DNA of 64,000 nt from Rhodosporidiobolus odoratus (taxonomy: Eukaryota > Basidiomycota > Microbotryomycetes > Sporidiobolales > Sporidiobolaceae), in NCBI GenBank assembly GCA_034387635.1, contig JAOANU010000011.1, positions 528,501 through 592,500 of the forward strand, in the 5' to 3' direction. The translations under genes and the position numbers were made by a program. The notes under the pieces were generated by a model. It did not search any database and was not told the DNA's origin. It saw only the letters and a program-made list of their open reading frames with translations. The first letter of the stretch is position 1, and each line of letters opens with the position of its first letter. This document shows, one piece after another, positions 24,424 to 38,399 of this stretch.

Positions 24424-27400
24424 ATGGCCTCGTCAAGCTTCACAGGAGAAGCGAGCAAGGCATCACCGCCGGCAGGTCATGCTCCGGATGGTGGTGCCGG
24501 AGGTGAGAAGAAGCGGGGAACGAGGGGAGTGAGGGCCTGCGTAGAGTGTCGGAGGAAGAAGAAGACGGTGCGCCGTACTGCCTTACCCCATCTAGTCTGC
24601 TGGCTGACCGAGTTGCTCTCCCTCTGCTGGCCGCCGATGCCTTCTTTGTCACCCTTCGCGCTCGCTCGTCCTCCTGTTTTGACTTGTGTCAACTCGGACA
24701 GTGCGAAGGAGGCGGACCTCCATGCAAGCGCTGCCACACTTCTGGTTCAGTCTGCGTTTTCGATAAGCCCAGCTCTGCTATAATCGAGGATGCGTAAGCT
24801 GTTTTGTTGCTCATTTTCTTTTTCTTTCTTTTCCTCCTGAAGGCGGGATCATGCTGACAAGAATGGCCCGGGCAGAGGCATGACGCGACTGTCGAGTATA
24901 GAAGCCGCCTTGGCGGCAAATGACCAGCGGCTTGCGGTGCTGTCGCAGAGTATGGGCGAATTCGGTTGTGAGCCGGTTTCTATTCCTTCTTCCTTTCTTA
25001 CGGTCAGTTGAGAGCTGAGTAGAGTCCGTCGACAATAGCGGCACTTCAGGAAGTTCTCGCCTACATCCGCTCATCCGGCGTTAGCCAACAGCCGCTGCAA
25101 CCTCCGAACACGATACCTCGTGTCCCATCTTCTTCGTCCTTCGGCCCCGCCGCACCCTTGTTCCCTCATCCCGACCCCACCTTACCAACAACATCCCTAC
25201 CTCCAACCTACGCTCTACCTCGCCCGCCACCACCACCCTCGACTGCCTCCGGCGTGGTAGCCTTTCAGCCTTCTCTAGATACCGCTGCCTTGTCCCTTCC
25301 GCCTTTCTCGAGTGCTGTTTTACCCACTGTTCCTTCTTCCATTCACCACTCAGCTACATCTGAGCCACCCAAGGCGGACTTCTCAAGTGGTCTCGACGCA
25401 CTTGCAAGTCTCGCCTCGAACTCGCCCGACATCCATCGCTTCGCGACCAGAATGGGTCAGCCTATCTCTGCGCTGGCCGATGCTGTCGCTCAGCTAGGGG
25501 ACGGTGAAGATCAGCAGGGGGAGGACGTCAAGGCGGATGTGGTCGCAGGAGGGGAATCTAGAGCAGGAATAGAAAACTGCGCGGAGAAAGGCTTCCCTGA
25601 CCGCGAGCGCCCTGCGAAGAGGGCGAGAACGGCGCCGCCGCCTCCACCGGAAGCACAGCCGCGATGCGACCTGGTATCGAAAGGGCTCATCTCGGACGCT
25701 GATGCAAGAGCTGCGGTATCGCTGTAAGTCGTCCTCTTCCTGGTATACGGGCGTTTTTCACCTTTCCTTCTGGCAACAAGGTGGATGTCGCAATGTCAGC
25801 CGTTTTGCTCGGTCCTCAACCCCGCGGTCGACACCTACGATTCCATCCGTCGTCGTTCGGCGTTCCTCCTTAATGTTGTGGTATATACCGCCCTTCGTGC
25901 CCAAGGAGGCAACGCGCCACCTTCACAGATACTAAAAGATGCAGCGGAGGAGACGAAGAGGTTCGCTCGGAACGCGGTATTTAAGCCGCCGTTACTCGAG
26001 GATGCACAAGGTGAGCATATGCTTCACCCGTCACTTTGCTGCCTGTCGAGGCTGACAGTGGTGCCCTTCTCCAGCGCTATGCATCATGGCCTGCTATCAC
26101 CAGGAGCCGTAAGTCTTGCCTCTTGCCGAGCTGGAGGCCCCGTGGACAACGAGGCGGTTCGCAGCTTCTTCCGGACTCGCTCACTTTTTATCGCTTCTAC
26201 AGCTACATTCTCTCCGGCATGGGACTCCGCCTCGCCTTATCCGCCCGCTTTGAGACGACATGGGCGCAGATAGAGGAGCATGGGTTTGACCAAACCGACG
26301 ACAAGGCTCAACGGCTAGCCAGTCAGTTCAGATGCTGGCTCTACATTCTACAACTCGATACAAAGCATTCTCGTTACTCCGGTCGCCTCATGCTGGTCCA
26401 GCCCGGTGACCTCGAAACGACGATCCAGCAGGCCGACCGCTTCCTATCGCTTCCCGTAGCCATTCAGACTGACATTCGCAACGTTGCCAATCTGCGCCTC
26501 GTTGGTATCGAACGCCAAATCTCCCAAGACACGGCCAGGATGGGCGAAGCTGGCCTTGAGCAAAGGCTCGAGTACCTTCACGAGATGAGGGGAAGGATTA
26601 CTGAGTGGCACGCGCAATACGATCACGTCCTGGTGAGCCACTATACTCGCCTTTCTTCCTTCGAGTTTATTCAAACCTTCTCGCATGTGCAGTCTCAGTC
26701 CGAGCCCTCGCCGCTGGGTTGGCCCCGCCGCAGCCACTCCCGCATGTATTGGGACGCGAACCTCTTCCTTGTCGTCTCGATCTTCAACCAGCATCTCCTC
26801 GAAGGCTCGCACGCCATTTCAAAAGACCTCGAGCAGGTAGCTCGAGACGGTCTACGTCATGCTCGAACCGACTTGCAGATGGTCCTCGCATCTCCCGTGT
26901 ATCGCGAAGGCATGCGCTGGAGCGGATACCTGCTACGAGTCGACCTTTCCTTCGCTGCGATCTTCCTTTTAAAAAGTGCAGCTGCTTACCCTCATCGTAT
27001 GTTCTGACTCTTCTCTGTCTTTTCTGCGTTTTTCGGTCTGACCGTGTCCTGCTGCCGCAGTTGTCAATCGCGACGAGGTGGCCACGGAGGTCCAGCAGGT
27101 CGCCGACTTGCTTCACGACCTCGCTGGCTCGCAACGCTACTCCTCCCTCCTTCGGTACTGCTATCGTTCTCTCTCATCCCGTCCCTCGCTGCTGACCCTT
27201 CGGCGTCCATAGAGTTGCCCGCGAGCAGTATCTCGCCCGCGCTGCACCGTCTCCGATGCCCGGTCTCCCGCAAGATCCTGCCGGCGCACCAGCGTCGCTT
27301 CAATCCATCCTTGGTCCGCCTCTTCCTATGTTACCCGCTTCAGTCTCAAGCTACGGTACGGCGACAGCATCGTCCGCCGCAGCCATCGCCTCACCTCCCT

Positions 27401-27609
27401 CCCATATCCTCTCGCCTGCGACCTTCCCGAATGCTCCAACTTCCGCTCCTGTTGGTGCGAGCGGAACAGCAGCCCTTCTGCCTGGAGAGCTCGACTTCGA
27501 CTGGTCTCTCACGGTTGCACCGTCTCTCCTCGACGATCCAAACATGCTCCTCAACCACGACTGGACGCAGCTCACGGTAGGAAACACGGGCTGGCTTGAC
27601 GAACTTTGA
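24424..27609 (+). CDS. Zn2Cys6 fungal transcription factor (first)
   Basis: Exons: 24424-24567, 24702-24793, 24843-24967, 25039-25723, 25781-26010, 26075-26108, ~26131-26632, 26693-26996, 27061-27154, 27213-27609. The binuclear zinc cluster spans the first intron: CVECRRKKKTC then GGGPPCKRCHTSGSVC, giving the six cysteines in correct spacing. A Ser/Pro/Ala-rich stretch follows, then a fungal-TF middle homology region (LWMSQCQPFCSVLNP, QALCIMACYHQEP, FYRFYSYILSGMGLRLAL, SRMYWDANLFLVV) and an acidic/Pro-rich C-terminus ending WTQLTVGNTGWLDEL, a possible activation domain. The link after ACYHQEP is odd. Keeping the frame there needs a 22- or 28-nt intron starting at 26109. Target genes are unknown. 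The molybdoenzyme gene lies just downstream, but a regulatory link is only a guess. Confidence 0.82.
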
Positions 27610-27879
27610 AGTGAAAGCCAGGAGAAAGGTATGTGTAGGGCATTATAATAGGGCACAACAACTAATTTTCGCTACCCAAAGCCGAATGCAGAATAGGGTA
27701 CAAACTGAGTTGCTCACGGCGGCTGCCGCTGTCGCCGTTCGTCTGCCATGCGCTCACAGGTCCTTGTTGCGATTGTTGTCGTTCGTGACGTTGACGGGGA
27801 CAATGAGAGTCTGGGGCGCCGAGACCTTGTTCTGGTCACTGCGCGAGCAAAGTACAAGGTGAGCACAGCACAGACAAGA

Positions 27880-30800
27880 CTATACTAGAACGAGAACGTA
27901 CAAGCACCAAGATGCGGCCTGAGAAAATGACTTGGTCGCGTTGGTGCAAGCAGCGGCAAAGTCTTCGTCGTGCAAGGCGAGAGCGGCCGGCGACATGCAG
28001 GCAAGCCAGCCAAGAAGGCAAGAGATGAGAGTGTGAAGACCATTGAGGCTGTGGATAGCAGCGTGTTAGCGGGCTGCGGCAGCGTGAACGCCGGAAGAAA
28101 GGAAAGAGGCAAACGCACTCCATCAAGCGCTTGTAGGTCTTCGAGCCCATGCGGTGCTTGGGGAACAGCGCTTTGACAAGCACCTCCATGTCCATATTTG
28201 CCTGCTTATTGTCCTCGCCGAAGTGGTCCACAAAAGGCTGAACCTTCTTGGCTTGTTCAATGCAGAGACGGTGGTGAAGCTTGAGTCCGAGACGGACCTC
28301 CCTGCGCACAGGTCGTGTCAGTTGCTTGTCAGCAGAAAAGATGAAGAAGGAGACAGCAGAGGTAAAGCTAGAAAGGACGACGCACATGTGGTCAGCGTGA
28401 GTTTTCGCCATCTCTTCCATCTTCTCAAGCACAGCCTTCGAAAATACGTCCCACTGCACCAAAAAGCAAGAGTAAGTATGAGTCTATTTGTGACCGAACT
28501 CGCAAGAAGACTGACCTCGCCGAGGAGGTCCTCGAGATGGCGGTGGTGTTCCTCCTTCTTCTGCTCATGCGCTCCGTTGTTCTTGATGGCTTCGACTTTT
28601 GCCTGCTCGGCCTTGTACTGGTGCGAGACGGCGTAGATCTCGACGCCTGGCTCAGCCTTGCGAATACGCACAGCGCCGCCCTGCGAATGAAGACACTGAG
28701 GTGAGCCACGAGCAGGGGAGCTAGTGCGAGACGGAAAGAAGCCGCACCTTGAAGGTCGGCTGCTTCGAAACGAAGTCCCAGCTACTCTCAGTCAAGTCAT
28801 TCGCAGCCCTCGAGCGAACCGGTTTGCCATCGTCGTTGGCCTGATCCGCAGCGCCGTAGTGGAAAGGCACGAAAACGTTCCCCTTCGCGATCTCGCCGAC
28901 TTTGGCAGGGACTTCGAGGTTCCCACGACGAGACTCGACGACGACCATGTCTCCGTTCTTGATGCCGTGCGCTTCGGCGTCTTCCTCTGACAGCTGCACG
29001 AACGCCTCAGGCGCGGCATCCTCGAGAACCTTCGAGCGGCCGGTCTTGGTACGGGTGTGGAAGTGGTGGACAACACGCCCGGTGGAGAGCCTGAGAGGAA
29101 AGTCGTCATCGGTGAACTCTTCAGCTGCCTGGTAATGACAAGCCTTGAGGATTGCCCGTCCGTTCGGGTTCATCGCCTTGAATGTCTCAGGCGAGATGAC
29201 GGTACCGGTGAAGAGGTCGTGACCGTAAGATTCGACGTTGGCGTTGTCGGTAGGGAAGATGAAGTCGTCGTACAGGCGTGTTTTGCCGTCTGGGTACTTT
29301 TCGTTGCATGGCCATTGGATGCCGGATCCGCCGGTGAGTTCTGTTTGAGGAGAGTGAGCGATGGTACGAGGCAGGGAAGCACAAGGACCGCTCACTTTCA
29401 TAGGACAGTCCAGTGTAATCGACAGGGCGGCCCTTGGTCGACTTGGCCCAGTGATTGAATGCCTTCTCGGTTTCAGTGAGCCACGGGATGAGGTCATTGC
29501 CGTCCTTATCCTGGAGAATGTAACGAGTCAGGGGGAAAGCCCTCGAGACGAAGCGGAGGATCCACGCACCTTGAACCCCATCCTGCGTCCGTAGTCGGCG
29601 AAAATCTCCATGTCGCTCCGGGCTTGGCCGGGCGGCTCAACGGCTTTGTAAGCGATGTGCACGGTGCGGTCTACGTTCGTGAAGCATCCGGTCTTCTCCG
29701 ACCATTGAGCGGCGGGGAGAACGACATCGGCAAGAGCAGTCGTCTCCGTAGGGAAGATGTCCTGCGCGATGACGAAGAGATCCTTCGACGCGAAATTCTT
29801 GCGGACACGAGCCAGTTCAGGCATCGAGACTGCGGGGCTGCAGCAAAGTCAGGGTTGACACAACAGTCTATGATTGAAGACGTAGAAAGGAAGACGGACT
29901 TGGTACCGCTGATCCAGAACACTGAGCAGAAATGTCAAGTCAGTCCGGTTTGAGAAGGTCGGCGAGGAAGTAAGGGTAGACGCACTCTTCACGCTGCCGT
30001 TCTCGATGAACTTGAGCAAGTTCATGATGTGCGTAGGCTGTCCCCAATGCGGGATCGTCTTCACGTCGACATTCCAGTGATCCGCCAAGTCTTGCATGTG
30101 GTCGGGGTTGGAAGGATTCTGCAAACGGCAAAAAGATTCAGTGCGCTGCTATTGGTCACGGTAGATGTCTAGATCGTGGTCAGGAAGGGGAGGACCAGGC
30201 TCGATTAGACCAGAACAGCTGGGCGAGACGCGGAACGGAAAAGTGACTGAGGCAGGCCAGGAAGGAAGAGAGGAAAGAGATTGGTAACCTACGCGGAACC
30301 CGGGAAACTCGCCATCGCAGCCGCACTCCCTGTTGTTCTGTGTATGGTGCAAAAAAAGTAAGATGGTCAGCGAGATACAGAAGATGGTGCGCGGGAAGGA
30401 CGGTGTAGATAGTCCGAGCGGTAAGGGCAATGTTCGGCGATGCTCGAGAGCTGAATCTCCAGAGAGAAACGGGGTTAGACAAACCTGGGCGGTGGGCTGG
30501 CCGTTGAACTGGAAGACGGCGGCGCCCTTCTTCCCGATGGCGCCCTTGACGAGGTTGATGTTGTTGACGGCACAAGCAGACGCAGTAGCTTGGTTGGATT
30601 GGCTGTGGGTAAGAAGGTAGTGAGCCGAGTGCAAGAGGAGGAGATCCAGTTGAGACCTACTAGACACCTTGCAGGCAAGTACTGACGAGCCGCTTGCTCT
30701 TACCGAGGGACTCGGCAGCACGCTGGATGAGGTCGACGGGCACATCGGTCAGTTCAGAGACGTGCTCCACATCATAGTCCTTGACCGTCTCCTTCAGCTC

Positions 30801-32258
30801 GTCGATACCGATCGTGTGCTTTTGAATCCAGTCGGCGTCGTGGTACTCCTCGTTGTCGAGGATGATCTTCATGAGACCGTTGAGCAGGGCGAGGTTAGCG
30901 CCAGTCCTGACCGCTAGATGGATACCGCCGTTCTCCACGGCAGCGTGACCGACTGAGGTGCGGCGAGGGTCCATGACGATCAGGAAGGGAGGGTTGGGAC
31001 CCGCAAGACGGTCGAGGACGCGCGCCCAGAGAACCGTCTGCGTCGCAGCCATGTTGTGGCCGACCACTGCAGGTAGCAGCCCAAGTCAGTCGCCCGCCGG
31101 AGCTATTCAAGACAATCTCGAGAGCGCACTGAAGAGGGTGTCGCAACAGTCGAAGTCCTCATAGGAACCGGTCTGGCCATCGCAGCCGAAAGATTCACGC
31201 ATAGCAGCTGCAGCAGTGGCCGTGCACTGACGGAGGGACAAAGGCTGAGCGAGCTTCAAGAAAATCCTGCCATTGAGAGGGCTTACAAGGCGAGTATTAC
31301 CGTCCATGTGCAGGGTGCCAAGACCACCTTTCCTGTATGAGGCGAATACACAGTTAGTAGTCTGTATGAGCGAAGACCGCAGGCCTGTTGGCAAGGGGTA
31401 GAGAGAAGGGCGACGGCAACCACGACTCAGGAGAAAGAAACGACGGACCCCACGAGCGCTAGGGTGTGGTACTCCTCCAAGAAAAGCTGACCACTCGTGT
31501 AGAACGCGATGGAGTGAGGCGTGTAGTGCTCGATGAGCTCCTTCGACTTGCGGACGATGAGGCTCATCGCTTCATCCCAGGTGGCCGGCTCCAGTTGGCC
31601 GGTTTCTTTGCTGCGGATCATCTACATACCACATATCGATCAGTACTGGACACTCTCTACTGCTACGGCGCTATGAAGCGCATGCCCGGATACAAAGCCG
31701 GGGCAGGTTGACAGGATCGAGGAGGAAGACAACTTGAACGGAACGAGCTTGTCCGTACCGGCGTGGTTAAGCGGTCTTTGCCATGGATGCTCGTCCAGCC
31801 ATACATTCTGCGATCAGTGGCCAGCGCAAAGTTGGTACTGTGTAGGCAACCTTCCGCACTCGTGGTGAGGGAAAAAACGGTTTACCCTTTCGGACCGAGC
31901 CTTCCCTTGTTGACCCTGTCTACGGCCCTACCGCGCACGCCGACAACCTTGCCTTCTTTGACGCCGACGTCAATGGCGCATCCGTTCGAGCACAGGACGC
32001 AGCAACTCTGAACCCATTTCTCAATCTTTTCCTCCGGTCTGCGAACCGCGACTGGTCAGCTATTCCTCAGGTAGTCGCGGGTGCACGGAAGAGAATTACG
32101 TACTCAAGTAACATATGATCGACCCTTTCTTCCCATTCCGTCTCGTTGCCGTTGAAAGGCCTCTTCTCCCCCCAAAGCTTGTCGACTTCGGCCGACTTCC
32201 TCGATTCGCTGACCACGCTGCCGAGGTCGTCAAGCTTGGGAAGGAACCGACGCGGCAT
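27880..32258 (-). CDS. Prokaryotic-type (NasA/NarB-like) Mo-bisMGD oxidoreductase
   Basis: Predicted 985 aa in 18 exons: 32258-32104, 32038-31886, 31807-31759, 31621-31449, 31332-31287, 31226-31130, 31066-30661, 30602-30485, 30337-30293, 30118-29986, 29921-29900, 29837-29570, 29510-29396, 29340-28748, 28680-28516, 28453-28386, 28301-28119, 28048-27880. Phases agree throughout. N-terminal [4Fe-4S] motif CCVLCSNGC (~64-72); the usual fourth Cys position reads RLGPKG. Mo-binding core: IRSKETGQLEPATWDEAM, NTRLCTATA with the probable Mo-ligand Cys193, SFGCDGQTGSYEDFD, VGHNMAATQ, YQSNQATASACA, VFWISGTNPA and PTETTALADVVLPAAQWSEK. The molybdopterin-dinucleotide C-terminal domain has LSTGRVVHHFHT and GDMVVVESRRG. 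About 195 helical residues rich in Lys, Glu and His follow. DMSO-reductase-family enzymes use bis-MGD and are bacterial/archaeal. Assimilatory nitrate reductase is the nearest resemblance, but substrate and electron donor are unproven. Fungal NiaD is unrelated to it. Confidence 0.88.
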
Positions 32259-32446
32259 AGCTATGTGTGTGTATGGTGTATGGTGTAAGAACGAGGTGGG
32301 GCAGCGTCAACCGATTCCCCTGGCTCGCCGATGCCGCTTCTCCGACTCGGGATTCGTTCAGACGATCAAGACACTTCACCGAAGGGCAAACAAGGTGGGG
32401 TTCCAACCGCCAGCGCGCTCTTCTACCTCTTACCAGCTCACTAGAC
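32259..32446. promoter_or_regulatory. Divergent promoter region of the molybdoenzyme and MobA-MoeA genes
   Basis: About 188 bp separate the two start codons, so both genes must take their upstream signals from this short stretch or from each other. It contains a TGTGTGTATGGTGTATGGTGT direct-repeat-like segment next to the reductase start. No known factor site is identified. Confidence 0.5.
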
Positions 32447-34787
32447 ATGGCTGCTGTACCGGGTCTCGCTGTGCTGCTCTTGCTCGGAGGCAGATCGACG
32501 CGAATGGGAGAGCCGAAGCACCTCCTCCCGCATCCGCTCTCCAGCCAGCCGCTGTACCTGCACCATCTCGACATGCTCACACAGCTCGAGCGCGATGAAT
32601 ACTTTCCGAGCGGTGTGTTTGTCAGCGCGAGGGAGGATCAGCGCGATGGACTGAAATTGCCCGAGGTGCGTTTTCTGTTCCTCCTCCTCGTTCCCGTACA
32701 GCCGGCTAACGCTTGTGTACCCAGACCGTTCAAGTCATACTAGACGACCCTTCCCTCGACATCGGACCCGCCGGCGGAATCTTACAAGCCTTTTCCTCCC
32801 GCCCGAATGCGACTTGGCTTCTCCTCGCCGTCGACCTCCCCTTCATCACCCGCGACTCGATTCTGCACCTTCTTTCCTCTCACTCACCTGTCTCGCCTGT
32901 ATCCCTCTACCTCCACCCCGAAGACGGAAACCCGGAGCCGCTCTTCTCCATCTGGACGCCGCCCGCCTTGAAGCAGCTCGAGGAGAACTGCAAGAAGGGG
33001 AAGAGTGGACCGTGCCGAGCTGCCAAGGATATTTGGGGCGGCAAAATCATCGAGGGAAAGGGTGGTGTGAAGGTGCTCGAAGAGAATTGGGTGCGCGATG
33101 CCGACACGAAGGAAGAGTGGGGCGCGGCGATTGAGGCTCTTTCTGGGGGAATCAAGGTGAGTTCACACTTCCTCCTTCGCTCCGAGCGCCTTAGACCTGA
33201 CGGGGTCGTCGTTAGTGCCTGTAGACCGCGAAGTCGCTTCCGCCAACTCCCCTTCTTTTTCCCGATGTTTCCGTTTCTTTCTCGACCGCGCAGCCAACCT
33301 TTGCGCCCAGACGGCGTCGTCACATCCCCTTCGCTTCCGCCATCGATCGCATCCACGAACTCTCCCTATGCCGTCCTGCTAGCAGTGCACCGCGCCCCTT
33401 ACCATGTCCTCCCTCGGCCTTCTCAGCTACGACAACCAGCGCATCTTCCTCTCCCTTGCCTACTCTACCGCTCACACATGCTGTGGGCCATACCAGCGCC
33501 TCCGATATCCTCGCCGTCTTTCCACATCCTCTGCAAGACAACTCAGCCATGGACGGCTATGCCCTGCCATCTTCTCTTCTGGCCTCTGCTTCACCTTCTT
33601 CTCCCACTTCCCTACCTATTCTCGGTCGCATCATCGCCGGAGACCCTCCTCCACCTTCAAGTTATGTCAGCGCACTCGGTACGCAAGGTTGCTGGGAAGT
33701 CATGACCGGCGCCGTCTTTCCATCAGAAGCATCCGATGCGGTGGTCAAAGTGGAAGATGCCGAGCTTACGCAGGAACGGGACAGCGAGGGCCGAGCTTTT
33801 GTGCGTTTCTCGGGATCTGTCAGAGAGCGGCAGAATAGGCGGAAGAGGGGTGAGCAGGTTCAGCGTGGAGATGTCGTGCTGAGGAGAGGTCAACGGATCA
33901 CGCCGGAAAAGGTGATGCTCCTTGCGGCCGTCGGGGTGGCGGAACTCGCCGTCCAGCCAGACTCGAATGCGTCACAGCCTCGGCCAGCGCACAAAGGAAA
34001 GGTCGGAATCCTCAGCACCGGCAAAGAGATCATCTGTCTCGCATCTCTCTCCCCCGGCGTAGAACCTTCTCCTGGACAAGTGATCGACTGCGTAACGCCG
34101 TATCTCTCCGCCGTCCTCTCCTCTCTCGGCTACGACCCCATCCTCCTCCCCGCCTCCGGCGATTCCTCCTCCTCCTTCGCATCCTCCGTCTCCGCTGCCC
34201 TTTCCCCATGTTCATCCTCTCCTGTCCCGCTCGACATGCTCAGTACCACCGCCGGCGTTTCGCTCGGCGTAACCGACCATCTCCCTTCTACCCTCTCCTC
34301 CCTCGGTCTCACCCAAATCTTCCATGGCGTTTCCATTCGCCCTGGAGCGCCAGTCATGCTTTCCCTCCACACCAACCCTGATACCGGCAGAAAGACTCCG
34401 GTCCTATCGTTGCCCGGGAACCCGATGGCGTCGGCGGTGGGGATGAGGAGTTTCGGGAGAGAAGTCCTGAATTGTTTAGGAGGCATCGAGGGGAGGGAAA
34501 CAGGGTGGGAGGAGTTCGAGGTTCCCACATCGGAGGGTGGGGTAGACGAGGAGGAAGCTCGAGCGTGGTTTGAGTTGGTGGAGAAGGTAAAGGAGGGATC
34601 GACGAGCTTCTTTGCGCTCCCGCTTGATCAAGAGGGGAAGAAGCCGATGTTGATGGTGCCAGGACGGCATTCGAAGGGAATCAGGGTCGGGCCATGCGCT
34701 TTAGGGAGTCTGGTACACGGGCAGGCTTGGGTAAGAATCGAAGGTGTCGAGGGTGGAGGAAAGAGGGCGATGTGGTGTAGGTTCTGA
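32447..34787 (+). CDS. MobA-MoeA fusion: molybdenum cofactor guanylyltransferase joined to molybdenum insertase
   Basis: Predicted 714 aa in three exons: 32447-32665, 32725-33156, 33294-34787, all phase 0. Residues 1-217 are MobA, which transfers GMP to Mo-molybdopterin: LLLLGGRSTRMGEPKHLL (nucleotide-binding loop LxGGxxxRMGxxK), DIGPAGGILQAF, LLLAVDLPFI (the metal/GTP Asp) and NPEPLFSIW. Residues ~218-714 are MoeA, which inserts molybdate: HAVGHTSASDILAVF, DNSAMDGYAL, RIIAGDP, GCWEVMTGAVFP, RRGQRITPEKVMLLAAVGV, GILSTGKEI, TTAGVSLGVTDHL and LPGNPMASAV. No MogA domain is present, unlike the eukaryotic Cnx1/gephyrin fusion. The join is spliced in frame by a GTGAGT...GCGCAG intron (33157-33293). 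Its divergent neighbour is an enzyme family that requires the cofactor MobA makes, so coupled function is inferred. It converges with RPR2, whose stop lies about 120 bp away. Confidence 0.88.
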
Positions 34788-34905: not shown

Positions 34906-35787
34906 TCACGCCTGGCGGTATTCGTCCTGCGCCAATACCTCGTTTCCCCTGATCGTGACGTGGCCCTCCCGCTGGAAGAGAGGCGGCTGACGCGCCTGCC
35001 TGCGTTCACGCTCCTCTCGCCTTGTTCTCTTGCTCTTGCTCAGTGGGGCAGTCGAGGCAACGGCTTCAGCGAGAGGCGCCTGGGCGGCATGTTCGGCGGA
35101 AGCAGCAGGGGCCTCGGGGCAGAGGTGGGGCGACGCGGGAAGACGCCGTTGGCTCTGGCAGGAGGTGCAGGTGTGGACGACAAGGTGGCCGTGGGGACCG
35201 GAAGCTGTACATGGAGTTGAGGTCAGCATTACTGCCTGCTACGACGACTGGAGAAAGCGAAAGACGTACGCTTGATTCGGACACGCGAGGTCATTCCGGG
35301 TACGAGAACACCACCGCAGCCTTTGCACTTGGTCCGCTTGACCGCAGGATCCCTAGACATAGCAAGGGTCAATCAGGCGAGTGGGGAAGACGGGACGGAT
35401 AGTAGTGCACATTCTGACGGTCGCTTTCTTCGCAACCTCGACCATCTCCTTGGCGAGGTGGCGCGAGACAGGCAAGAGCGAGTCTTTTGCTCTTCGTCGC
35501 TGCCTTGGTGGCTTCTTTGCCCCGGCGGGCTGTCCCTCCTTGACATGCATTTCCGCATCCGACATGGGAGTGTCTTCCTCCCTCGCTTGCTGATGCACGT
35601 CCTTTACGAACGTTCTCGTGTTCTTTGTTCGGCGCTTCCCTGGTGTCCGCGCCTGGGCCGTAGGCGGGAGTGCCGAACTGATGAGGACGGATGCCTGATA
35701 GAGGTAGTTGAGGCGTTGTAGCGCATCCCGGTTGACGACTGGAGTAGCGGGAGTAGGCGCCGAAGGTTCTTTCTGTTTTTTGGCCAT
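34906..35787 (-). CDS. RPR2: RNase P/MRP protein subunit Rpr2/Rpp21-like
   Basis: Predicted 252 aa in three exons: 35787-35411, 35352-35270, 35204-34906. The family core is visible: NRDALQRLNYLYQASVL, SRHLAKEMVEVAKKATVRM, RTKCKGCGGVLVPGMTSRVR and LVVHTCTSCQSQRR. The CxxC pairs (CKGC and CTSC) form the zinc ribbon of Rpp21/Rpr2/Snm1. These proteins bind the catalytic RNA of RNase P, which removes tRNA 5' leaders in the nucleus. A basic insertion of about 60 residues (GKRRTKNTR, PPRQRRRAKD) sits between the N-terminal helices and is longer than I expect in the family. The C-terminal third is Ala/Arg-rich. Whether it serves RNase P or MRP cannot be told from sequence. Confidence 0.8.
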
Positions 35788-36103
35788 TCTAGTGGAGATT
35801 GAGCGAGCAGAGTGAGATCGAGGACAACAAGTTCGCTTTCACCAAGTCTCCGTGTCCTCAAATCTCTTTTCATCATCTCGCTTCTCATCTAGCATCTCCC
35901 GAGCGCACCCAGAACGTCGACCACAATACAGTACGGTACCGCCGCCAAGTGAGCCTGATTTGCCGCCTGCTCTCCTCGCCGTAATCCCCTATCCGCCTCT
36001 GTCCGATCAGCAAGCCGCCGTTCGCTTCAGCACCTCGCCAAGGACGCCAAAGGGCAGACGCGCAACCCACCTCGACTTTCCGCACAGCAGTCCACCTTCG
36101 GCC
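35788..36103. other. Divergent spacer, RPR2 to MFS transporter
   Basis: A 316-bp gap between two divergent starts. An open frame continues upstream of the transporter ATG but has no ATG of its own (it begins GTG), so I treat it as leader or promoter sequence. Confidence 0.5.
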
Positions 36104-38399
36104 ATGACGTCGAGCTCGACGGAAACAACGCCTCTGCTGGCCCGAAAATCGGAGGACGATGTTGATGACCCGACAAGAATGCCAAAGGGCAGGCGCAACA
36201 TTATTCTCTGCGCCGTCTGGCTCGGCGTATTCCTTGGTGAGTCTGCCCTCACCCACCAATTAGGGCAAGGCTGACATGTGACCTGTGCAGGCGCTCTTGA
36301 CGGAACTATTGTTGGTATTTTCTTCCTTTCCTCCTGCGTCTCGTCTGTTCTACCTTGTACTAAGTTGTCCAATACTTTAGGTTGCCACCCTCATCTCGGA
36401 CGTCTCTTCCTCCTTTCAAAAGTCCAACCAAGCCGGTCTCCTCGGGACAAGCTACCTCCTCAGCACCGCAACTTTTACTCCCCTGTATGGCCGCCTGGCA
36501 GACATTATCGGCAGGCGGAACGCTCTCTTGATGGCTCTCACCCTATTCACCTCGGGTACGGCGCTATGCGGCTTTGCGCCGTCCATGACTATGCTGCTTA
36601 TCGGCAGGTTGATCGCTGGGATGGGAGGTGCGCCCTCTCCGTCTTCCCCTTATTCCACGTGAACATGTCTAACTTGCATTCGACCGCAGGTGGCGGTCTG
36701 ATGGCTGTTTCTTCCATCACTTGCTCCGACCTCGTCCCGCTCAAGCAACGAGCCCTATTCCAAGGCCTCGCCAATTTGTGGTTCGGAGCCGGCTCAGGCT
36801 TGGGAGGTCCTCTAGGCGGCTTCATCTCTGACAGATTCGGCTGGCGAACAGCTTTTATCGGTGAGTCCTCTCTATACTCGTCACGGGGCGATACAGATAC
36901 AGCTGACGCGTTACTCACCACAGGTCAACTACCTATCCTCGTCTTCGCTGCTTTCCTCGTCTTCCGCTACTTGCGATACCGTATTCCCGGTCAAGGCAAG
37001 AGCAAGCGCGAAATGGTCCGAAGAATCGACTACCTCGGCTCCCTGACGCTCGTCATCAGTGTGCGCCCGCTTTCCCTCCCTCACATCTCGTGTTGCTCCC
37101 GCTTATCATGCGATTTCTGCACTGTTGCAGCTTGGCTCCCTCCTTTTCTCCCTTTCGTTCAAGAACGACCGCAATCTGCCATGGAGCAGTCCGCTCGTAT
37201 GGGTACCATTGGTCATGTGGGCCGTTGCCGGCGTAGCCTTTGTTCTGGTCGAGGCCTACTGGTCCCCTGAGCCTGTCATGCCTCTGCGGTACGCTCCATA
37301 CCCTCTAGAGCTTCGTATGAGTGCTCAATCCAATCCGTCACAGCCTCCTCGGAGATCGCAACGGCCTCTTCGTGGCCCTCGCCAACTTTACCGTCTCCTT
37401 CGTCTCGTTCTCGATACTTTACTTCTTCCCACAATTCTTCGAGATCGTTAAGCAGAACACGGCCTCTCAGGCAGGCGCCCACCTGTTGCCCAACTCCATT
37501 GCCCTGTCCATCGGTTCCCTTTTTGCCGGTTTCGTACGTTTCCCTCCCCTCTCTCTCTCCTCCATTCTGACTCTTCGCCCTCCTGTCGCTATCGCTATTG
37601 GTTCTGATGGTACGCACGTACGCAGGTCATCCGCAAAACAGGTCGCTACTACTGGCTCATCGTCATCTCGTCCTCCTTCCCCATCATAGCCCTCACCTCG
37701 TTCGTCTTCCTCGACGAAAACAGCGGTTGGGTCCAATCCTGGCTCTCCATACTGCCGAGCGGCTTCGGGTTCGCGAGTGTCATCACGGCGGGTCTCAGTG
37801 CGTTTTCATCTCGTTCCTTGCGTCCCTTGTAGTTCGCTATTGACGAGAGAACTCTTCCCAGTCGCTCTCATCGCCTCTGTCGACCGGTCAGAAATGGCCA
37901 CCGCTACCGGATTGACTTATCTCTTCCGCTACGTCGGTCAAGTCGTCGGAGTCGCCTCGAGTGCTTCGGTCCTTCAAACCGTCCTGAATGATCAGTTGCA
38001 GAAACGTATAACGGGAGAGGGGTCTGCCAAGGTTCGCTGCACTCCATCACGAGACGGTCACTCGTCCCCCCTCTTTTCTAATTGCGTTCAGTCACTCACG
38101 TTTCGACTGCTTTTCACTCGTAGATCATCGATCAAATCCGCCATGTCTCGACTTCGATTCCCTCCCTCCCTCTCCCTCTGCAACAAGCCGCCCGAACCTC
38201 CTACCACCTAGCTCTTCGCGCCGTGTTCCTCCTAAACCTTGTCGTGGCAGTATTGTGTTTCTTGTCGACTTTGCCGATTAGGGAGATGAAGTTACCGGGG
38301 AGTTTTGAGGAGGAGGAGGTTAGGCGCGCAGCGGCTAGGGGGGAGGGGGACGAGGAGGGGGGACCCGAGCGAGAGGGAGGGGGAGATGGACAGGCCTAG
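36104..38399 (+). CDS. MFS multidrug/amino-acid transporter, DHA2-type (14 helices)
   Basis: Predicted 557 aa in ten exons: 36104-36236, 36291-36310, 36381-36627, 36690-36860, 36924-37060, 37131-37288, 37344-37533, 37626-37797, 37862-38031, 38124-38399. A short charged cytosolic N-terminus precedes the first helix, which ends in the DHA2 signature LDGTIVATLI. The major-facilitator motif GRLADIIGRR follows helix 2, and GGLMAVSSITCSDLVPLKQR and GGPLGGFISDRFGWR match motifs of helices 4-6. The total of hydrophobic stretches suits 14 membrane spans, as in vacuolar basic amino-acid (VBA) and drug:proton antiporters. The C-terminal tail is Glu/Gly/Arg-rich. Exon 2 has only 20 nt. Substrate is unknown. 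It could sit in the vacuolar or plasma membrane. Confidence 0.85.

Follow-up and report, generated by a model that had tools for sequence, protein, structure and literature searches.

A molybdopterin oxidoreductase gene and a divergent MobA–MoeA fusion gene in Rhodosporidiobolus odoratus: a probable dinucleotide-cofactor enzyme system in fungi

We analysed a stretch of 64,000 nucleotides from the yeast Rhodosporidiobolus odoratus (assembly GCA_034387635.1, contig JAOANU010000011.1, positions 528,501 to 592,500; hereafter the window), which belongs to a genome of 24.8 Mb on 45 contigs. In it, a gene for a molybdopterin oxidoreductase of the DMSO reductase family lies next to a gene for a fusion of MobA and MoeA, two proteins of molybdenum cofactor (Moco) synthesis. 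Based on the splice model, Pfam domains, homologues and a structure model of an orthologue, the enzyme gene occupies 27754..32258 on the minus strand and encodes 1006 amino acids; the fusion gene occupies 32447..34787 on the plus strand and encodes 737 amino acids. The start codons (32258 minus, 32447 plus) are separated by an intergenic stretch of 188 bp (32259..32446), presumably a shared divergent promoter. A preliminary description of this DNA had proposed an enzyme of this family with an adjoining MobA–MoeA gene in divergent orientation at this distance, and the locus is real in all these respects.

The enzyme gene consists of 19 exons and 18 introns, GT–AG throughout. Exons 1 to 7 lie at 32258-32104, 32038-31886, 31807-31759, 31621-31449, 31332-31287, 31226-31130 and 31066-30661; exons 8 to 14 at 30602-30485, 30337-30293, 30118-29986, 29921-29900, 29837-29570, 29510-29396 and 29340-28748; and exons 15 to 19 at 28680-28516, 28453-28386, 28301-28119, 28048-27902 and 27838-27754 (all on the minus strand). 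The 18-exon model proposed before is reproducible (957 amino acids, 17 GT–AG introns), but its last 280-bp ‘intron’ contains an intact exon of 49 amino acids (exon 18, 27902..28048), which appeared as a 49-residue gap in the alignment with relatives. The gene also continues 126 bp to the left of the edge given earlier (27880), to 27754. The corrected protein is equal in length to P0002 of R. odoratus JCM11641 and aligns to it without gaps, with 991 of 1006 residues identical (98.5%). A chance origin of the frame is excluded because the 3-kb spliced frame is open and conserved. In the searches for homologues and against NCBIfam, Pfam and PDB sequences, the enzyme was represented by its 957-aa form.

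The Pfam matches of the enzyme, PF04879, PF00384 and PF01568, are each above the gathering score and make up the complete domain set of the DMSO reductase family (Molybdop_Fe4S4, Molybdopterin, Molydop_binding), whereas the Pfam scan gave no match to Oxidored_molyb (PF00174), the NiaD-type domain. Inspection by eye did not find an export signal. The scores against the curated NCBIfam models are 396 bits for NasC (cut-off 1100), 342 bits for NapA (cut-off 904) and 472 bits for formate dehydrogenase alpha (TIGR01591, cut-off 666); the earlier label ‘NasA/NarB-like’ therefore holds as a resemblance and fails as an assignment. The AlphaFold2 model of P0002 (75-row alignment) has a mean pLDDT of 88.9, and Foldseek ranks the NapA of D. 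desulfuricans first (TM 0.91 over the target, 32% identity), followed by formate dehydrogenases and other NapA proteins.

Concerning the key residues, the amino-acid molybdenum ligand expected of the family is present as Cys193 (DGNTRLCTA, exons 5–6, 31130..31332), which is kept in 27/27 fungal rows of the alignment. The iron–sulphur (FeS) motif in exon 2 (31886..32038) reads C65-x2-C68-x3-C72, and Gly100 (GRLGPKG) stands in place of the fourth cysteine. The fungal site is thus C-C-C-G: C72 and G100 are found in all 27 rows, C65 and C68 in 26, and the Filobasidium exception may be a gene-model error. The database models of P0042 (Filobasidium) and P0065 (Exophiala) are disturbed at this motif, probably by annotation errors. 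A four-cysteine FS0 site is usual in the DMSO reductase family but not universal.

Exons 15 to 19 (27754..28680) mostly encode a C-terminal helical domain (about residues 805–1006), which is fused to the enzyme in some bacterial relatives and encoded by a separate small adjoining gene in others. For the separate bacterial counterpart, a four-helix ferritin-like fold is predicted. Such a gene directly follows the enzyme gene at loci L019, L022, L025, L026, L028, L029, L031, L033, L034, L040, L042, L046, L050 and L057. Diiron ligands of ferritin-like proteins are provided by E and ExxH; the corresponding columns are not conserved in an alignment of 14 separate bacterial C-terminal proteins. Pfam searches with these 14 (E up to 1) gave weak matches only (DUF892 in three, best 0.0047), and the only PDB sequence match of a separate C-terminal protein below 0.001 is a designed coiled coil. 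The preliminary description mentioned neither the ferritin-like domain nor the lost fourth cysteine, and its picture of the enzyme is corrected accordingly.

The fusion gene has three exons (32447-32665, 32725-33156 and 33225-34787), and its product is identical to R. odoratus P0122 at 710 of 737 positions. Pfam recognises PF12804, PF03453 and PF00994, each above the gathering score. The MobA half (NTP_transf_3, 32447..33156) is alignable to E. coli MobA and carries the motif LLGGRSTRMGEPK, GP-x2-G and D110-L-P; both GG-x3-RMG-x2-K and the D-x-P metal site are present. Residues K24, G87, P88, G91 and D110 are found in 17/17 fusion proteins, and G14, G15 and R19 in all 14 rows that extend there. 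We take the MobA-type GG and GP-x2-G motifs as indicators of the choice of GTP. Across the 24.8-Mb genome, NTP_transf_3 (PF12804) is matched at this locus only, and MoeA_N twice, in the fusion gene and in a CnxE-like gene on contig C25.

The MoeA half (33225..34787) contains MoeA_N and MoCF_biosynth, and its domain IV is too diverged for recognition by the Pfam model MoeA_C (PF03454), though the C-terminal stretch aligns. Eight active-site positions of E. coli MoeA were compared, and five are kept (D59, T100, E188, D228 and D259); the placement of D228 is unsure, as the gapped alignment differs between two alignments. Some of the substitutions in this half recur in other MoeA-like proteins. 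We considered a dead MoeA half, with domain IV and most catalytic residues lost, and dropped the idea: the diverged domain IV stretch aligns, the motifs STGKE and RPG occur in other MoeA-like proteins, and five of the eight positions are kept.

The two genes are paired beyond this genome. Their locus tags are consecutive in 7/7 related yeasts that have both tags in one series (strains JCM11641, JCM8547, JCM8097, JCM3770, JCM3775, JCM10296v2 and JCM1840). In R. nylandii the tags come from two annotation versions, and for each of the two proteins the longest contig listed has 1740723 bases. A stand-alone MobA is found in four named Ascomycota (Coniochaeta, Pyricularia, A. unguis and A. undulatus) among 39 MobA matches. 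Enzyme and MobA lie on contigs of equal size in A. unguis (556829) and A. undulatus (656044), and enzyme and MoeA in Microdochium (2037821); equal size suggests the same contig, not adjacency. One gene model of Monosporascus joins the enzyme to MoeA.

Of 7999 candidates scored in the protein search with the enzyme, 7010 reached E <= 1e-3. Among the top 120 of these are Sporidiobolales, Naganishia, Filobasidium, Crassisporium, Saitoella, Fusarium, Pyricularia, Verticillium, Trichoderma, Aspergillus, Penicillium and black yeasts. Relatives are therefore present in both Ascomycota and Basidiomycota and already stand in databases, where their names include ‘nitrate reductase’ and ‘4Fe-4S Mo/W bis-MGD-type domain-containing protein’, so the earlier impression of something peculiar to this genome is abandoned. 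A 103-row tree unites all 27 fungal rows chosen for it with 12 unnamed rows in a single clade (SH-aLRT 100), which divides into a basidiomycete side and an ascomycete side, each supported at 92. In a 43-row mixture-model tree, 14 fungi and three unnamed rows form the fungal clade (100/96) and none of the 26 bacterial rows falls inside it; the basidiomycete side is not recovered there as a single group. Neither tree places a named bacterium within the fungal clade, both nest the fungal enzymes among bacterial relatives, and the unnamed rows grouped with the fungi may themselves be fungal. Since the fungal rows form one clade without a named bacterium, the acquisition looks old; the simplest reading of the enzyme trees would be a single ancient acquisition with descent and losses thereafter. 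The MobA tree comprises 40 rows, mostly unnamed metagenome proteins. None of 24 pattern matches on viral contigs encodes a relative of the enzyme. A term search of the main text of PMC11708051, which surveys genes transferred into fungi, found no mention of molybdenum.

Looking at the bacterial relatives at the 80 loci studied, the C-C-C-G site is found in Pseudomonadota (11/11), Bacteroidota (11/12, one gapped), Planctomycetota (2/2), Nitrospirota (2/2), Chloroflexota (1/1), Cyanobacteriota (1/1), Acidobacteriota (1/2, one gapped) and Bacillota (2/12). All four cysteines are kept in 8/12 Bacillota and in the three other outgroup rows. Among 34 Actinomycetota, one keeps the cysteine motif and the other 33 are without it (one gapped); the molybdenum-ligand cysteine is replaced too in 15 (one more gapped). 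The actinobacterial relatives (loci among L031–L080) are thus apparently cofactor-poor or repurposed members, and the cluster seems to have been lost stepwise in the family, with the fungal branch at the three-cysteine stage.

The genomic context was examined at the 80 bacterial loci, of which 58 have 5 kb or more to either side of the enzyme. The HPP-family profile matches in eight loci, each time on the strand of the enzyme and within 589 bp, and the SLAC1 profile in six, within 654 bp and each time on the opposite strand (in L028 as three pieces); one further SLAC1 match overlaps in L039, and its meaning is unclear. Pfam confirmed HPP in L012, L033 and L041, and SLAC1 in L022, L030 and L036. 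The MobA profile matches in 0/80 loci and the MoeA profile in one, the outgroup locus L083, whereas the same profiles detect E. coli MobA (E 4e-19) and MoeA (E 7e-122); E. coli MobA as a query also found nothing in the 80 loci. The pairing of enzyme and helper therefore more likely arose within fungi. Of the bacterially derived module proposed before, the bacterial ancestry of the enzyme agrees with the trees, and the acquisition of the module as a unit does not agree with these counts. The bacterial neighbour clusters are small (39 of the 80 loci), and no nitrite reductase was found among 15 bacterial neighbours scanned with Pfam. DyP peroxidase and encapsulin genes lie upstream of the enzyme at two of the 80 loci, both in Rhizobiales (L037, 8079-9945; L024, 4646-6551): the pair is directly upstream in Mesorhizobium composti, and in Shinella fusca similar genes are separated from the enzyme by others. 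We treat this as incidental.

NiaD-, NiiA- and CnxE-type genes are found elsewhere in the R. odoratus genome. A NiaD-type nitrate-assimilation cluster lies outside the window on contig C4, at about 291.8-301.8 kb (L005, L095, L097). Within about 10 kb it contains an Oxidored_molyb match whose gene has a cytochrome-b5-like stretch (read by eye), a nitrite/sulphite reductase match and NarK/NrtA-type transporter exons (E 3.5e-25, each exon singly below the curated cut-off). The Oxidored_molyb (PF00174) matches of the genome are on C4 and C1. Given this ordinary nitrate cluster, the enzyme in the window appears to be an addition to NiaD and not a substitute for it. HPP and SLAC1 matches of the host are on contigs other than that of the enzyme. 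Concerning the other genes of the window, pieces of open reading frames at 25023-27606 (+), which run towards the enzyme gene and its 3' end, resemble a fungal-specific transcription factor by eye; a 204-aa piece of them has no Pfam match. On the other side, a weak Rpr2/Rpp21 match at 35356-35835 (-), which stays under the gathering score, may mark a gene for an RNase P subunit, and about 36100-38200 (+) has MFS transporter-like open reading frames, with a weak TIGR00886 match (E 4e-4) at 36384-36632.

The best reading of these sequence data is that the two genes probably form a eukaryotic enzyme system based on the bis-molybdopterin guanine dinucleotide (bis-MGD) cofactor, in which the fusion protein supplies the cofactor to the neighbouring enzyme, and that such a system would be shared by a wide range of fungi and not be peculiar to one genome. 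A fuller account, which we favour with somewhat less assurance, is that Dikarya make and use a dinucleotide cofactor; that the enzyme, with its unusual three-cysteine FeS site and ferritin-like domain, came from bacteria by a single acquisition, no later than the ancestor of Dikarya; that MobA, fused to a derived MoeA in these yeasts, joined it within fungi; and that the enzyme is a second, non-NiaD reductase of an oxyanion, probably nitrate. We infer that both genes are expressed and that the system works in the cytosol. There, Mo-molybdopterin from the ordinary fungal pathway (CnxE) would receive GMP from the MobA half, giving Mo-bis-MGD, and the MoeA half would be a metal-handling or docking partner of the MobA half, so that the single chain would couple metal insertion and GMP attachment. 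Mo-bis-MGD would then be loaded into the enzyme encoded next door. This order would follow the known pathway, described as metal insertion by MoeA and GMP attachment by MobA in PMC13197769, and TorA, a bis-MGD enzyme of E. coli, needs GMP for the insertion of its cofactor (PMC9103625).

With the molybdenum held by Cys193 and the three-cysteine FeS site at hand, the enzyme would most likely reduce an oxyanion. The best guess for the reaction is nitrate to nitrite, alongside the normal NiaD nitrate reductase, mainly because HPP and SLAC1 genes adjoin the enzyme in bacterial loci. Relatives of SLAC1 are anion channels, with nitrate among the anions. An HPP protein of a plant is reported as a nitrite transporter in a passage of PMC4137279.

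Several observations weigh against this reading. The MobA half scores 39.7 bits against the NCBIfam MobA model TIGR02665, below its cut-off of 151.85, and the MoeA half is altered at three of the eight active-site positions (D142 to Q, K275 to G and K279 to R). The enzyme misses all curated equivalog models, and its formate dehydrogenase score is above those for NasC and NapA. None of the 27 fungal rows has the fourth FeS cysteine, and most actinobacterial members are without the cluster and many without the molybdenum ligand; because of these losses, membership of the family is no guarantee of activity. Finally, neither HPP nor SLAC1 is nearby in 66/80 loci (65 if L039 counts), though no more than 58 of the 80 extend 5 kb to either side.

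Of the alternatives, the strongest keeps the bis-MGD system and changes its substrate to another oxyanion, an N- or S-oxide, or formate, which we regard as a real possibility a little short of an even chance. It would fit the formate dehydrogenase model scoring best, though under its cut-off, the NiaD-, NiiA- and NrtA-type matches already on C4, and the 15 scanned bacterial neighbours without a nitrite reductase. Against it, a Thr follows the molybdenum-ligand cysteine, where formate dehydrogenases have His, NapA is the best structural match, and the HPP and SLAC1 neighbours point towards nitrate and nitrite. We find it improbable that the MobA half carries out another nucleotidyl transfer (e.g. 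with CTP) and that the enzyme uses bis-Mo-molybdopterin or no cofactor. The sub-threshold MobA score leaves room for this, and part of PMC9103625 describes E. coli YdhV as a bis-Mo-molybdopterin enzyme without nucleotide; the retained MobA-type GG and GP-x2-G motifs, the dinucleotide-binding domain PF01568 and the pairing in all seven yeasts argue against it. Less probable again is the arrival of the whole module from bacteria as a single operon, suggested by the tight pairing in yeasts and the linkage in some Ascomycota: MobA is near the enzyme at none of the 80 bacterial loci and MoeA at a single outgroup one, with profiles that detect the E. coli proteins. Bacterial contamination, which the preliminary description had rejected, is refuted by the introns: the enzyme gene is nuclear. 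Nothing was found in favour of contamination or a dead gene, and either would hardly be compatible with 18 GT–AG introns in an open frame, 98.5% identity within R. odoratus, relatives in Ascomycota and Basidiomycota, and a coding GC of 0.578 against 0.571 for the window.

A working bis-MGD system would be the first of its kind in a eukaryote. In a review, missing MobAB and a missing dinucleotide cofactor are given as differences between eukaryotes and prokaryotes (PMC9370521), in agreement with the preliminary description, and a genome survey lists only the SO, XO and MOSC (mARC) families for eukaryotes (PMC6147048). A fungal enzyme of the DMSO reductase family or a fungal MobA is not described among the matches listed in the openly licensed literature, which is no proof of absence. 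If the system works, many fungi would be exempt from the rule of no dinucleotide cofactor, and tractable yeasts would allow a direct test. The enzyme would be an unstudied molybdenum enzyme of fungi, with nitrate or a similar oxyanion as its possible substrate, and the natural MobA–MoeA fusion would serve as a model for the handover from metal insertion to guanylylation.

Compared with known systems, the fungal enzyme shares with the NapA of D. desulfuricans (PDB 2nap/2jio) the fold, the Cys at the molybdenum-ligand position and the Lys after the FeS motif; it differs in its 32% identity, the lack of an export signal (by eye), Gly for the fourth FeS cysteine, the extra C-terminal helical domain and a score under the NapA cut-off. 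With the assimilatory nitrate reductases NasC/NarB it has in common the domain order and the absence of an export signal seen by eye, whereas its score is 396 against a cut-off of 1100 bits and its site has three cysteines rather than four. The named bacterial rows among the listed matches (53–60% identity) are proteins of Hymenobacter, Adhaeribacter, Salinarimonas and others that carry the name ‘molybdopterin oxidoreductase family protein’ and no assigned function: they have the GRLGPKG motif and the C-terminal domain, fused or next door, but MobA is near the enzyme at 0/80 bacterial loci and MoeA at one outgroup locus only. The fusion protein is recognised by profile or sequence search as related to E. 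coli MobA and MoeA, and it retains the key residues of MobA and, of the eight active-site positions of MoeA, five; unlike them it is one chain, with the other three MoeA positions changed and domain IV missed by PF03454. Fungal NiaD possibly catalyses the same reaction as the enzyme, but belongs to a different family (PF00174) and is encoded on another contig of the same genome. MoeA–MobB fusions of gammaproteobacteria, described in part of PMC13197769, likewise join MoeA to a late-acting Moco partner; these are bacterial and the partner is MobB, whereas in the fungal fusion it is MobA.

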